Shown piece after piece: positions 48,818 to 53,970 of a DNA stretch of 64,000 bases. Each line of letters begins with the position of its first letter. The stretch's first letter is position 1. Both the position numbers and the translations under genes were made by a program. The notes under the pieces are model-generated. The model did not search any database. It saw only the letters and a list, made by a program, of their open reading frames with translations, and was not told where the DNA came from. The DNA comes from Bdellovibrionales bacterium (GTDB taxonomy: Bacteria > Bdellovibrionota > Bdellovibrionia > Bdellovibrionales > Bdellovibrionaceae), in assembly GCA_018266295.1 (NCBI GenBank), contig JAFEAQ010000004.1, positions 186,001-250,000 on the forward strand. Direction: 5' to 3'.

Positions 48818-49990
48818 ATGGCTCAGAAAAAATCTCAAAATCACGTTTATGATTATGCAATTATCGGAAGTGGACTCAGTGGCTTGAGTATCGCAGCGGC
48901 ATTGAGCCGCTTCACCGACAACATCGCTTTGCTTGAAAGTGGCGATGTTTCTGGTGGTATGAACCGCGCAATTAAATTCCCGACGGGTGTTACTAATAAC
49001 GGTCTTCGTTATGTCCCTGACACTGAAAGCGCACGCAATGCGATCGACTTCCTTGAAAACGTTCTTGGACTTAAAATCGCCGGTGAAAGCCAAGAGCTTC
49101 CGCCGATCACGTATGCTTCCGGCACCTTCAAACCGTTTGTCGGCTTCGGTGAAAACCCTCCGCCATTCTACGAAGAACTCAACTATTTCACGGCCAATAA
49201 AACTCTTGGCTTGAAGCTTGAGCCTTATGCTTGGACGCAATTGTTGTTTGAAAAATTCAAAGGCGAGTTCATGCCGCGCTCTTATGTCACAAAGTTCAAC
49301 GCCGTTGGCGAAACTGTGACTCAGGTGACTATTAACGGCGCGAAAACTTTGAGCGCACATAATTTCATCTTCTGTGGCTCCGTGAAAGACCTTGCTATCT
49401 TGTTGCCTGAAGATGCTATTTCTATCCGTGCTCGCCAAAGACTGAGCAAAAATACTTACTGGACAGCTTTGTGTCTTGATATCTGCCACACTCGTGCAGT
49501 GACTGATGTTGCTTCTATGCACATTCTTAACGGAACTACGGAAGACGAAATCGGACCTTGCGTAGGCCGCTTCTCTCCAGCTGTGACGGAGGGCGAACAG
49601 ACTTTGCAGGCTTCTCAGTGGATGACCTTCATTGAAGACGAAGTGACTGAAGACAGCGAAGTTGTTGGTGCGGCTCTTAAAAAAATCAAACGTCAAATCA
49701 AGCGTGCATACCCTGAAGCTCTTGAGTCTGTTAAGCTTGAGCGCATCGTGGTAGCCCCCCAAATCGCGGGTGACGGCGAATTGAAACTCAATGGGAATCA
49801 ATCCCTTCCAGGCTTGAATAACCTTTGGGTCGCTTCTGGTCCGGTGAACGCTCAGAAGAACCTCATCGGCGCTCTTGCACAAGCAAATCTGGTAATGGCA
49901 GCTCTTGGTTTCGATGTGACTGCTCCAGTAGTTTCTACTGAAGCTGAAACACAAGCAGAAACTGATTCAGAGACTCCTGCTGAAATGTAA
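48818..49990 (+). CDS. FAD-dependent amine-oxidase/protoporphyrinogen-oxidase-like oxidoreductase
   Basis: 390-residue flavoprotein with an N-terminal FAD-binding Rossmann motif, YAIIGSGLSGLSIAAALSRF (GxGxxG), followed by LLESGDVSGGMNRAI. Near the end is a second FAD contact region, NNLWVASGPVNAQKNLIGALAQA. It resembles the phytoene desaturase/protoporphyrinogen oxidase superfamily (NAD(P)-binding 8), but the substrate cannot be told. The last 25 residues are a Thr/Glu-rich tail. Two consecutive inverted repeats follow, before the S9 peptidase gene. Confidence 0.8.
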   Translation: MAQKKSQNHVYDYAIIGSGLSGLSIAAALSRFTDNIALLESGDVSGGMNRAIKFPTGVTNNGLRYVPDTESARNAIDFLENVLGLKIAGESQELPPITYASGTFKPFVGFGENPPPFYEELNYFTANKTLGLKLEPYAWTQLLFEKFKGEFMPRSYVTKFNAVGETVTQVTINGAKTLSAHNFIFCGSVKDLAILLPEDAISIRARQRLSKNTYWTALCLDICHTRAVTDVASMHILNGTTEDEIGPCVGRFSPAVTEGEQTLQASQWMTFIEDEVTEDSEVVGAALKKIKRQIKRAYPEALESVKLERIVVAPQIAGDGELKLNGNQSLPGLNNLWVASGPVNAQKNLIGALAQANLVMAALGFDVTAPVVSTEAETQAETDSETPAEM

Positions 49991-50000
49991 TTCCTAGACC

Positions 50001-50025
50001 CTAAGACGGTACCCTGCCGTCTTAG
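50001..50025 (+). terminator. Hairpin between the FAD oxidoreductase and S9 peptidase genes
   Basis: CTAAGACGG / CCGTCTTAG is a perfect 9-bp stem with a 7-base loop, then CATTTGATATTCTT. It could be a terminator with a poor T-run or an upstream stem in the leader of the peptidase gene. Confidence 0.55.
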
Positions 50026-50030
50026 CATTT

Positions 50031-50074
50031 GATATTCTTCATAGGATTTAGCGGAGGCTACTATGAAGAATATC
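50031..50074 (+). promoter_or_regulatory. 14-bp start-codon hairpin of the S9 peptidase gene
   Basis: GATATTCTTCATAG (50031-50044) and CTATGAAGAATATC (50061-50074) are perfect complements. The 16-base loop carries the ribosome site GCGGAGGC, and the ATG at 50063 is in the right arm. In RNA this stem would hold the start codon base-paired, so translation should depend on opening it. Confidence 0.75.
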
Positions 50075-52006
50075 TTGATCCTTTCATTATTCCTTTTGGC
50101 GTGCAGCCACTCTTCGACGAAAACAGATTCCAGCAGCAGCGGTGGCACTTATACCGGCCTCGGCAAAGATTCTATTTCCGAAGCAGATCTTCAAAAATAC
50201 GCGCCACCTCCTCTCAGCGCTGCCACCGAAAGAAACATCCGCGAAATGCTCGATATTTCTTTCCCGGGAGCCGGCCTTTTAACTCCGGATCAAAAGCAGT
50301 TCTTCTTCACTTGGAAAATCACGGGCGTTTACCAAATCTGGTCCCTGGAATCGAATCGTGAATTTCCAGTTCAACTCACGGCCGGCAAAGACTCTACCCG
50401 CCTCGACAATGTGACTCCGGACGGAAAATGGCTTGTGGTTTCCCAAGACAAAGATGGCGCAGAGAATCCCGGGATTTACTTGCTAAGCCTTGATGGTTTG
50501 CAAAGAAAGACGATCTTCGAGAGCCCTAAGGTGCGTGCGGGTGTTGCATTTATTTCTGATGATTCTAAATATCTCGTCTACTCTGCCAATGACGAAAAAC
50601 CGGATAGCTACACGTTTTATAAGTATGATATCAGCTCGGGTCAGCGCGAAAAAATCTTTCGCGAAGACGGCCAGTGGTTCTTGGCCGACTATTCTCGCGA
50701 CGGCAACCGTTGGCTCATGGCCAAGGCGACGACAAATATTTATCGCGAATATTCTGAATACAATCTGAAAACAAAAGCCCTCACGCCGGTTCTCGGCCAA
50801 GAGGAAAAAGAAGACTACAGCGCGATCTACGCTAAAAATGAACGCGATCTTTTAGTTGTGACGCCAAAATTCGGCGACTTCAAAAAACTGTATCTTTATA
50901 GAAATAAAAAATGGACGGAGCTCTTCGCGCCAAAAACCGGCGACGTGGAAGACCTTCGCATGGATCACAAGAAACAGCGTATCTTCGTGACTACCAATGA
51001 AGACGGCTACGCAAAATCTTACGTTTTTGACTCGACTTCCTACGGTCCTATGAAGCTTCCGGCATTACCAAATGGCGAGAATGTATACGTTGGCATGAGC
51101 AGCTGGGACGGCGACGTCACAATGTTCTCTGTTTCATCCTACAATACACCTCGCAAAAGTTTTGCTTATAACTGGAAGACTAAACAGTTAAAACAATGGG
51201 TCTTCCCAAGCGCTCCGGGAGTTGATTTCAAAAAATTCGTTCCAGCAAAGCTCGAGTATTACACAGCTCGTGATGCGACAAAAATCCCGATGTTTGTTCG
51301 CCGTCCGGCAAAATGCGCTTCTGAAGCCTGCCCTGTGATCGTTCACTTCCATGGCGGCCCCGAAGGCCAAAGCGTTCCAGGCTTCAACTCCGTGGCGCAA
51401 CTCTATGTCGATGCAGGATTTATTTTCGTTGAACCAAACGTTCGCGGCAGCGAAGGCTACGGCAAAGCATGGCTGCATGCTGACGACCAAGCCAAGCGCC
51501 TCAATGTCATCACAGATATTGAAGATGCCGCAAAATTCATCCGCGAAAACTGGAAGGTCACAAAGATCGGTGTCATGGGTGGAAGTTACGGTGGCTACTC
51601 GACATTGATGGCCATGACAAAATTCGCGGGCGCTTATGATGCCGGCGTAGCAAGCGTGGGCATGAGTAACCTTGTGACCTTCTTGCAAAACACCGCCCCT
51701 TACCGCCGCGCCCTTCGCACGCCAGAATATGGCGATCTCGACAAAGACCACGACGCCCTCGTAAAGCTTTCGCCAATTACTTACATCAATCAGGTGAAGT
51801 CGCCATTGATGATCACTCAAGGCGCGAATGATCCGCGCGTTCCGGCAGGTGAAGCGCTGCAAATCCAAAAGCTTCTCGAGAAAAAAGGCATTCCATCGAA
51901 TTTGATCTTGTTTGCCGATGAAGGCCACGGATCAGAAAAGAAATCCAACCAGATCCTCGAGATCGGTCACACGATGGACTTCTTCAAAAAACACCTTATG
52001 AATTAA
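50063..52006 (+). CDS. S9-family prolyl oligopeptidase-like lipoprotein
   Basis: 647-residue peptidase anchored as a lipoprotein (signal MKNILILSLFLLACSHS, lipobox LLAC, Cys14). A seven-bladed propeller-type N-terminal region (WDGDVTMFSVSSYNTPRKSF and similar, about 60-390) gates an alpha/beta-hydrolase domain (about 400-647). The catalytic Ser508 lies in GGSYGGYS; the Asp is in GANDPRVP (about 590) and the His in DEGHGSEK (about 620). HFHGGPEGQ forms the oxyanion region. S9 enzymes cut short peptides after Pro or other residues. It precedes an OPT peptide transporter, consistent with making and taking up peptides. A 14-bp inverted repeat covers its start codon. Confidence 0.9.
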   Translation: MKNILILSLFLLACSHSSTKTDSSSSGGTYTGLGKDSISEADLQKYAPPPLSAATERNIREMLDISFPGAGLLTPDQKQFFFTWKITGVYQIWSLESNREFPVQLTAGKDSTRLDNVTPDGKWLVVSQDKDGAENPGIYLLSLDGLQRKTIFESPKVRAGVAFISDDSKYLVYSANDEKPDSYTFYKYDISSGQREKIFREDGQWFLADYSRDGNRWLMAKATTNIYREYSEYNLKTKALTPVLGQEEKEDYSAIYAKNERDLLVVTPKFGDFKKLYLYRNKKWTELFAPKTGDVEDLRMDHKKQRIFVTTNEDGYAKSYVFDSTSYGPMKLPALPNGENVYVGMSSWDGDVTMFSVSSYNTPRKSFAYNWKTKQLKQWVFPSAPGVDFKKFVPAKLEYYTARDATKIPMFVRRPAKCASEACPVIVHFHGGPEGQSVPGFNSVAQLYVDAGFIFVEPNVRGSEGYGKAWLHADDQAKRLNVITDIEDAAKFIRENWKVTKIGVMGGSYGGYSTLMAMTKFAGAYDAGVASVGMSNLVTFLQNTAPYRRALRTPEYGDLDKDHDALVKLSPITYINQVKSPLMITQGANDPRVPAGEALQIQKLLEKKGIPSNLILFADEGHGSEKKSNQILEIGHTMDFFKKHLMN

Positions 52007-52092: not shown

Positions 52093-53970
52093 ATGTCCAT
52101 TCAAGAGCTCAATGAAGATCAGATTCACACAATGTCCCTCGAAGAGAAGGACGAGTGGTGGTTAAAAAACGTCTACAAAGGCGACATGCCACAACTGACC
52201 CTTCGTTCAGCCTTAACCGGCGTGATTCTGGGCGGGATCTTAAGTCTGACAAATCTGTACATCGGCATTAAAACCGGCTGGACGCTGGGTGTGGGCATCT
52301 CTTCGGTGATTTTGTCTTTCGCGTTCTTCAAAGCGATGGACAAGATGAAAATCGGCAGCCACATGACGATTCTTGAAAACAATGCCATGCAATCCATCGC
52401 AACCAGCGCTGGTTACATGACAGCTCCAATGATGGCGTCCATCCCGGCGTACATGATGGTCACCGGCCAAGTAATTCCGATGTATCAAACAATCTGGTGG
52501 ATTATTGCCCTGGCGGTCCTTGGAGTTCTGTTTGCTTTCCCTCTGAAAAAACGTTTTATCAACGATGAACAAATGCCCTTTCCAGAAGGATATGCTTCCG
52601 GCGTGGTTCTCGACAGTCTTCATTCGGATGACGGCGCTTCGGGTGTTTTCAAAGCAAAACTTCTCGTTGGCGGCGCAGGCCTTTCTGCGCTCATCGAGTT
52701 TTTACGTGCGGAACCCATCCTCACGGCCCTGAAACTAAAATTCTTGGCCTTGCCTCAGTACTGGGATGAATTCATTTACAAATTCGTCACTCCGAGAATA
52801 TTCAATACTCCGCTCAAAGACCTCACGGTTCAGTGGGACACTTCGATCGTGATGCTCGGAACCGGCGGTTTGATGAGCATGAAAACCTCCATGTCGATCT
52901 TGATCGGCGGCCTTATTAACTATTTCTTGTGCGCGCCGCTTTTGATTCAAGCCGGTGTGATTCCAGAGGCGAAATTCAAAGCGATTGCCATGTGGGCGCT
53001 TTGGGGTGGAGCTTCGATCATGACGACGTCGTCTCTGTTTTCATTCTTCTCTAAACCGCAAATGATCGTTGAAGCTTTCTCAAAAAGCTTTAAAAAAGGC
53101 CAGAAGCACAAACACCACGACGTGCTTGCTAAAATCGAGTTACCAATGTGGATTTTCGCTATCGGCATTCCGGTTGTGGGCGCGATTGTCGTATACCTTG
53201 GCCACATTTGGTTTGGTGTGCACTATTGGCTCGGCCTGCTTGCGATTCCGCTCGTGTTTGTCTTTACTCTGATTGCCGTGACTGCAACCGGCCTGACGGC
53301 AATCACTCCAGGCAGCGCCCTGGGTAAACTCACGCAAATCACCTACGGCATTCTAGCTCCAGGCAATGTGACGACAAACTTGATGACGGCAGGAATTACC
53401 TCTGAAGTTTCTCTGAACGCCAGCAACTTGTTGATGGATATTAAGCCCGCCTACATGCTGGGCGGAAAGCCACGTCACCAAGCTGTCGGCCACGTGCTAG
53501 GAATTTTTGCCGGCGCGTTTGTCGCAGTTCCGGTGTTCTACTCACTTTTCCACGGCGATATTTCCCTCCTGACCTCAGATGCTTTGCCACTTCCGGGCGC
53601 GGCGATCTGGAAAGGTGTGGCAGAGGCGTTGACAAAAGGTTTGGGCAATCTGCATCCGTCGGCTCAAGCTGCCGCGGTGATCGGCGCGCTCCTTGGAATC
53701 TTGATTGAGTTCCTCAACAAGAAGACACGCGGCCGTTTCCCGCTGTCGGGTGTAGGTCTCGGTTTGGGCTTCGTTCTCCGTTTTACCGATTCTTGGTCAA
53801 TGGCTTTGGGCACGTTGCTCTTCTGGCTCGCTCGCAAGAAATTCAAAGATCAAAAGAGCTTCGGCTACCGCGCCTTCGTCGAGAATCAAGAAACGATGGC
53901 TGCCGGCGTGATTGCGGGCGGTTCTATCATCGGAATTGTCCTAATTTTGCTAGAAAATGCATTAACCTAA
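52093..53970 (+). CDS. OPT-family oligopeptide transporter
   Basis: 625-residue inner-membrane transporter of the OPT family, which imports oligopeptides or metal chelates with protons. About 14-16 hydrophobic segments fill the protein. Family features are present in LRSALTGVILGGILSLTNLY near the N-terminus, TAPMMASIPAYMMVTGQVIP, FPEGYASGVVLDSLH and ITPGSALGKLTQITYG. Bacterial OPT members next to peptidases are believed to take up peptides. The 86-bp gap from the S9 peptidase gene holds a 14-pair hairpin over the ribosome site and a possible own promoter, so its expression could be uncoupled from the upstream gene. Confidence 0.9.
   Translation: MSIQELNEDQIHTMSLEEKDEWWLKNVYKGDMPQLTLRSALTGVILGGILSLTNLYIGIKTGWTLGVGISSVILSFAFFKAMDKMKIGSHMTILENNAMQSIATSAGYMTAPMMASIPAYMMVTGQVIPMYQTIWWIIALAVLGVLFAFPLKKRFINDEQMPFPEGYASGVVLDSLHSDDGASGVFKAKLLVGGAGLSALIEFLRAEPILTALKLKFLALPQYWDEFIYKFVTPRIFNTPLKDLTVQWDTSIVMLGTGGLMSMKTSMSILIGGLINYFLCAPLLIQAGVIPEAKFKAIAMWALWGGASIMTTSSLFSFFSKPQMIVEAFSKSFKKGQKHKHHDVLAKIELPMWIFAIGIPVVGAIVVYLGHIWFGVHYWLGLLAIPLVFVFTLIAVTATGLTAITPGSALGKLTQITYGILAPGNVTTNLMTAGITSEVSLNASNLLMDIKPAYMLGGKPRHQAVGHVLGIFAGAFVAVPVFYSLFHGDISLLTSDALPLPGAAIWKGVAEALTKGLGNLHPSAQAAAVIGALLGILIEFLNKKTRGRFPLSGVGLGLGFVLRFTDSWSMALGTLLFWLARKKFKDQKSFGYRAFVENQETMAAGVIAGGSIIGIVLILLENALT

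Follow-up and report, generated by a model that had tools for sequence, protein, structure and literature searches.

A start codon enclosed by a perfect 14-bp inverted repeat: a candidate cis-acting read-through lock on an S9-family peptidase gene of a Bdellovibrionales bacterium

Silencing of a gene by a hairpin over its translation start is established for I-TevI of phage T4, where transcripts initiated upstream form the hairpin but those initiated at the nearby late promoter do not (PMC2988022). The T4 genes e, soc, and segB also carry start-sequestering hairpins, with a late promoter downstream (PMC2988022), and in B. subtilis a hairpin of 20+ bp at sigG has been proposed to form on read-through from spoIIGA-sigE (PMC5942855). 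In the transposase leader of ISPpu9, structure at the 5′ end of the mRNA restrains translation, and an antisense RNA, Asr9, acts as the opener (PMC8450116). A literature search for further precedents returned none beyond T4 I-TevI, sigG, and ISPpu9 (PMC2988022, PMC5942855, PMC8450116).

Here we analyze a perfect inverted repeat that encloses the start codon of an S9-family peptidase gene in a Bdellovibrionales genome. The window is the whole stretch of DNA analyzed, 64 000 nt in length, and positions are counted from its first letter. The features of the locus are listed below in order of position.

48818..49990, + strand: FAD/NAD(P)-binding oxidoreductase-like gene (NAD_binding_8; ORF list and Pfam), upstream of the peptidase gene
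50001..50025, + strand: 11-bp hairpin, CTAAGACGGTA-CCC-TGCCGTCTTAG, with the tail CATTTGATAT (inverted-repeat check, terminator scan, and folding)
50030..50038, + strand: TG-A-TATTCT, a weak and speculative extended −10-like match partly inside and partly beside the left arm (sequence)
50031..50044, + strand: left arm of the start-codon repeat, GATATTCTTCATAG (inverted-repeat check)
50045..50060, + strand: loop, gatt-TAGC-GGAG-GCTA, made up of a bulge, an inner 4-bp stem, and an apical tetraloop (folding)
50061..50074, + strand: right arm, CTATGAAGAATATC, holding the ATG (50063–50065) and codons 2–4 (inverted-repeat check)
50063..52006, + strand: S9-family serine peptidase gene, 647 aa, nucleophile motif GGSYGG (ORF list and Pfam)
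52093..53970, + strand: OPT-family oligopeptide transporter gene, downstream context (ORF list and Pfam)

The two arms, separated by 16 nt, are exact reverse complements (14/14 positions), in agreement with the first-pass annotation of this DNA, which had also placed the ATG inside the stem and the ribosome site in the loop; sequence and folding bear out both placements. Folding further revealed an inner stem that the annotation lacked, in which TAGC (50049–50052) pairs with GCTA (50057–50060), leaving GATT (50045–50048) as a bulge and an apical tetraloop that consists of the Shine-Dalgarno core GGAG. As RNA, the start hairpin is predicted to have 14 + 4 = 18 bp with one bulge and an energy of −20.7 kcal/mol. 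The region 49960–50120 has a minimum free energy of −48.3 kcal/mol (z = −3.8 relative to dinucleotide-shuffled sequences), and the folding energy from −35 to +20 around the start, −21.9 kcal/mol, falls in the lowest 0.6% of 1836 gene starts, with 10 genes at or below it. On these models, hardly any translation would be possible from a messenger with both arms, its start codon being buried.

The assignment of the gene to the S9 prolyl oligopeptidase family, made earlier from the letters, is upheld by Pfam (Peptidase_S9, E = 3.7e-43), and the nearest solved sequence is 5l8s, an amino acyl peptidase. Read from the sequence, the N-terminus MKNILILSLFLLACS resembles a lipoprotein signal with the lipobox LLAC. 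The oxidoreductase-like gene ends 72 nt before the peptidase ATG on the same strand and may be a source of read-through transcripts. On the other side, the OPT transporter gene follows on the same strand after a gap of 86 nt, and peptidase and transporter are a possible peptide-use pair.

Between the oxidoreductase-like gene and the start-codon repeat lies the hairpin at 50001–50025, which the first-pass annotation had joined with the repeat into a two-hairpin leader. Its 9-bp stem exists (50001–50009 with 50017–50025, 9/9 pairs) and extends to 11 bp as RNA around a CCC loop (−14.3 kcal/mol, five G-C pairs, loop of 3), but a role in a leader is doubtful, and a terminator of the upstream gene fits better, since the hairpin starts 10 nt past the oxidoreductase-like stop codon and its tail, with 5 T in 8, is mid-range when set against the 170 strong hairpins that follow stop codons in 1.26 Mb of the genome. 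The hairpin is one of those picked up by the terminator scan and displays, weakly, the GC-rich stem, short loop, U tract, and nearness to a stop codon of an intrinsic terminator; it probably serves the upstream gene as a weak terminator of this type. The 14-bp repeat was itself considered as an intrinsic terminator and rejected: 4 of its 14 pairs are G-C, the loop is 16 nt long, and the tail TTGATCC lacks a U tract. It is not among the hairpins listed by the terminator scan.

We tentatively favor, at somewhat less than even confidence, a reading of the start hairpin as a cis-acting read-through lock of the T4 I-TevI and B. subtilis sigG kind. RNA polymerase would leak past the weak terminator-like hairpin at 50001–50025 and make RNA with both arms; this read-through RNA would fold into the 18-bp hairpin, which holds the AUG in its stem and constrains GGAG within the tetraloop, and the peptidase would stay untranslated. 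Productive messages would begin at ∼50036–50050, within or after the left arm, and without the 5′ arm their start would be open. An internal start of its own would separate control of the peptidase from that of the upstream gene. Control tied to prey contact or growth phase, as raised in the first-pass annotation, is speculative.

Structure prediction shows how much depends on the point of initiation. In the full-length model, the unpaired probability of the start codon is 0.00 at 10–55°C, so that ribosome site and start are sequestered in silico in upstream-initiated transcripts, whereas in a model transcript starting at 50045 it is 0.65–0.82 over the same temperatures. Because the first model is closed and the second open, the position of the transcription start is decisive for interpretation.

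The 150 nt upstream contain no sigma-70-like promoter above background (best two-block score 7, background mode 7–8), and a sigma-70 consensus could not be learned from 318 intergenic regions, in which real and shuffled scores were the same. The TG-A-TATTCT pattern has no genome-wide enrichment. Some tRNA promoters of the genome carry TTGAC-type −35 boxes; the peptidase leader has none at usable spacing. The Bdellovibrio attack-phase (FliA) promoter, TTAAG-N16-CCGATA (PMC3627812), was also considered and was not seen in the leader. Among hexamers of the 318 intergenic upstream regions, CGATAA, which resembles the Bdellovibrio FliA −10 (PMC3627812), is enriched (24 vs 10 expected), as are GTCTCA and TGTCTC (27 and 22 seen, respectively, vs ∼8 expected); the enrichment of GTCTCA is unexplained.

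Compared with its closest precedents, the locus is like T4 I-TevI in having a stable stem that hides the ribosome site and that would form only on transcripts begun 5′ of the left arm. It differs in that the peptidase gene is cellular, the AUG lies mid-stem, the Shine-Dalgarno core occupies the apical loop, and the stem is not conserved in relatives; moreover, I-TevI has a late promoter downstream, whereas the peptidase locus offers only the weak TG-A-TATTCT candidate. With sigG it has in common a long stem close to where a cellular gene begins, an upstream operon or gene on the same strand, and a proposed block to read-through, but sigG has its own mapped promoter and +1, whereas an own promoter of the peptidase gene is putative. 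The type of mechanism is already known, established in I-TevI and proposed for sigG, and the peptidase hairpin is a candidate case of it.

We assessed rarity in a survey of gene starts covering 2.06 Mb of the 4.22-Mb genome (23 contigs), sampled by stretches, in which 1836 starts were called by a simple ORF and Shine-Dalgarno rule. At 14 bp, the perfect stem of the peptidase gene is the longest to cover a start codon and has no equal, followed by stems of 13 (without a Shine-Dalgarno sequence, and with a doubtful start), 12, 12, and 11 bp. When the −60 to −21 region was swapped among 596 genes with a Shine-Dalgarno sequence, stems of at least 11 bp had a probability of 2.2e-4 per gene, and the tail of the length distribution dropped ∼0.3-fold per bp; by extrapolation, stems of at least 14 bp have a probability of ∼6e-6 per gene, or ∼0.02 per genome of ∼4000 genes. 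The earlier judgment that such a stem around a start codon is very unlikely by chance thus stands, and chance matching of sequence does not account for the 14-bp repeat.

Its position is a separate matter. Inverted repeats with loops of 10–40 nt number 22 for arms of at least 12 bp, vs 6 in a Markov model (one simulation), and 5 vs 0 for arms of at least 14 bp, the remaining four of which are all intergenic. Because long-loop repeats exceed the Markov model and the others are intergenic, one that falls on a gene start is not, on that ground alone, extraordinary. Arms of at least 10 bp overlap 8 starts, vs ∼6 expected from the density of 82 intergenic repeats in 288 kb, an expectation that is our own estimate, by location alone. 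That the repeat sits on a start codon speaks only modestly for a function. Two other intergenic palindromes of the genome (L141:7582–7643 and L079:4985–5028, with arms of 20 and 15 bp, respectively) have CCCTCTGAATA / TATTCAGAGGG in common and probably represent a dispersed repeat similar to REP or MITE elements.

Neither dyad of the peptidase leader recurs. The paired-arm pattern has a single occurrence in the 4.2-Mb genome with up to three mismatches allowed, the left arm is found at only one other site, with one mismatch, and the 50001 dyad has one three-mismatch match, which equals the level of the reversed control. A repeated element was rejected on this basis, and the lack of recurrence speaks against both a DNA operator and a mobile repeat. 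A contig scan yielded only a distant match, in Chitinophagales.

The family comparison comprised 66 genomes, with one genome only for the source genus, and a peptidase match at E ≤ 1e-150 was present in 27/66, the source genome included. Across these 27 genomes, no readable orthologue leader has a comparable start stem; two leaders, L014 (masked) and L023 (truncated), were left out of the comparison. The nearest orthologue (G078, 65% identity) differs in its upstream gene, by sequence an SDR-like reductase, and in its strong hairpin, which ends 19 nt before the ATG; it lacks a start-codon stem. In the leader of this orthologue, a long bulged hairpin lies just 5′ of the ribosome site (L034:1418–1462), and the folding energy of the leader is in the lowest 3% of the local background.

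Other relatives show hairpins of different make. In genus g6, three genomes (G035, G029, and G005) have a weaker hairpin whose 3′ arm contains the Shine-Dalgarno sequence, and G023 has a terminator-like hairpin immediately 5′ of the ATG; the leader hairpins of these four genomes rank in the lowest 2–19% of their local backgrounds, a weak trend, and they are not homologous to the 50031–50074 stem. Among the g6 peptidase orthologues, L019, L020, L022, and L015 carry in the last 35 nt a terminator-like hairpin and T run that abut the ATG (for example AAGGTCC...GGAGGACCTTTTTTTATG), and in L019, L020, and L022 the 3′ arm of the hairpin contains the Shine-Dalgarno sequence. Since the genus is represented by a single genome and the orthologue leaders (≤65% identity) cannot be aligned, covariation gives no evidence either way.

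Three further loci of the source genome have possible sibling hairpins.

L155:11693–11730: start hairpin of 12 bp, perfect; loop of 14 nt with AAAGGA
L133:6356–6393: start hairpin of 11 bp, perfect; loop of 16 nt with TATAAT
L053:6629–6660: start hairpin of 12 bp with one G-U pair; loop of 8 nt; gene for a fatty acid cis/trans isomerase (Pfam CTI)

In all three, the start codon lies in the 3′ arm, and a ribosome site or a −10-like TATAAT lies in the loop or arm. A gene on the same strand ends 49–73 nt upstream of the L155 and L133 starts and 39 nt upstream of the L053 start. The stem of the CTI gene is absent from readable family orthologues, which suggests, as far as sequence comparison can tell, a recent and lineage-specific origin, whether through selection or through mutation. 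It is distinctly unlikely, in our estimate, that perfect start-codon hairpins between tandem genes are lineage-specific, repeatedly evolved translational insulators of ordinary chromosomal genes (the peptidase, CTI, and two others). Elsewhere in the genome, a GDSL lipase gene (L161, ∼8201) has at its start a 12-bp hairpin, AGAGTCTCATGG-aac-CCATGAGACTCT, followed by TTTTATTTTT; the likely real ATG is in the right arm, so that a terminator-like structure overlaps the gene start.

The read-through lock draws support from the buried start, the open 50045 model, the same-strand upstream gene and the terminator-like hairpin of middling tail behind it, the three similar loci, and the precedents; against it stand a promoter search that found nothing above background, the absence of the stem from orthologues, a trait that the CTI sibling repeats, and the excess of intergenic repeats. 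Its strongest rival, which we nevertheless consider unlikely, is an inverted repeat with no selected role, arisen by chance or by a template-switch (quasi-palindrome) mutation that copied the gene start in reverse. Such a repeat would persist because messages begin beyond the left arm or the cell tolerates low expression. Confinement of the stem to the source genome is consistent with this, as are the genome-wide excess of long-loop inverted repeats over the Markov model, which includes repeats of 12–13 bp in coding regions, and the lack of strong enrichment at starts relative to intergenic DNA. It accounts less well for 14 bp with zero mismatches together with an inner stem that sets the Shine-Dalgarno sequence in the apical loop; in addition, a message bearing so strong a stem should go untranslated, so that the stem would be expected to decay if the peptidase is needed and both arms are transcribed. 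Were all messages locked, a stem of −20.7 kcal/mol would need an opener acting in trans. A small RNA could do this by pairing to one arm, as could a ligand, a helicase, or an RNA-binding protein, and ISPpu9 is a known case of an RNA opener with positive action (PMC8450116). The ISPpu9 leader is similar in that an mRNA 5′ structure conceals the ribosome site and restrains translation, but it belongs to a mobile element with its own opener sRNA, to which the peptidase locus has no known counterpart. Such a trans-opened switch seems quite improbable given that the arm is found elsewhere only once, with one mismatch, that 49700–50400 has no Rfam match at E ≤ 1, and that covariation evidence is unobtainable from one genome in the genus; the Rfam result also speaks against the ligand control envisaged in the first-pass annotation, as far as riboswitches or RNA families of known kind are concerned.

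Stems under ligand or heat control are typically far less stable than one of 18 bp, and opening by heat, likewise envisaged there, fared no better. An RNA thermometer, whose stem melts at raised temperature and frees the ribosome site, would suit a stem that spans the start codon and flanks the ribosome site, and ROSE and fourU elements do have a stem over the translation start; their stems, however, are imperfect and melt in the physiological range, whereas here the start codon is unpaired with a probability of ≤0.01 up to 65°C and 0.07–0.09 at 80°C in silico. With the stem closed to ∼80°C in silico, we rejected the thermometer and give it almost no weight. Binding of a dimeric regulator to the palindrome as a DNA operator, at a promoter near the gene start, would make sense of two perfect dyads before the gene (50001–50025 and 50031–50074, arm centers 30 bp apart), but neither dyad recurs in the 4.2-Mb genome, and the 4-nt bulge that offsets the inner stem is easier to reconcile with RNA than with a symmetric protein site, which leaves this reading a very slim chance. 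We also think it very unlikely that passing ribosomes or polymerase briefly open the stem, by translational coupling or as a fixed low translation that keeps peptidase output low relative to the upstream gene: the neighbors are on the same strand and 72 nt apart, as coupling would have it, but 40 nt and a hairpin separate the upstream stop from the left arm, so that a terminating ribosome, judging from its footprint size, would not reach the stem.

Interest in the peptidase hairpin is modest unless the siblings form a class, and the hairpin may be neutral; the read-through lock, if true, overturns nothing known. If the lock works, silencing of read-through transcripts as described in phage and sporulation genes would extend to an ordinary envelope enzyme, and the hairpin would be a compact insulator module.
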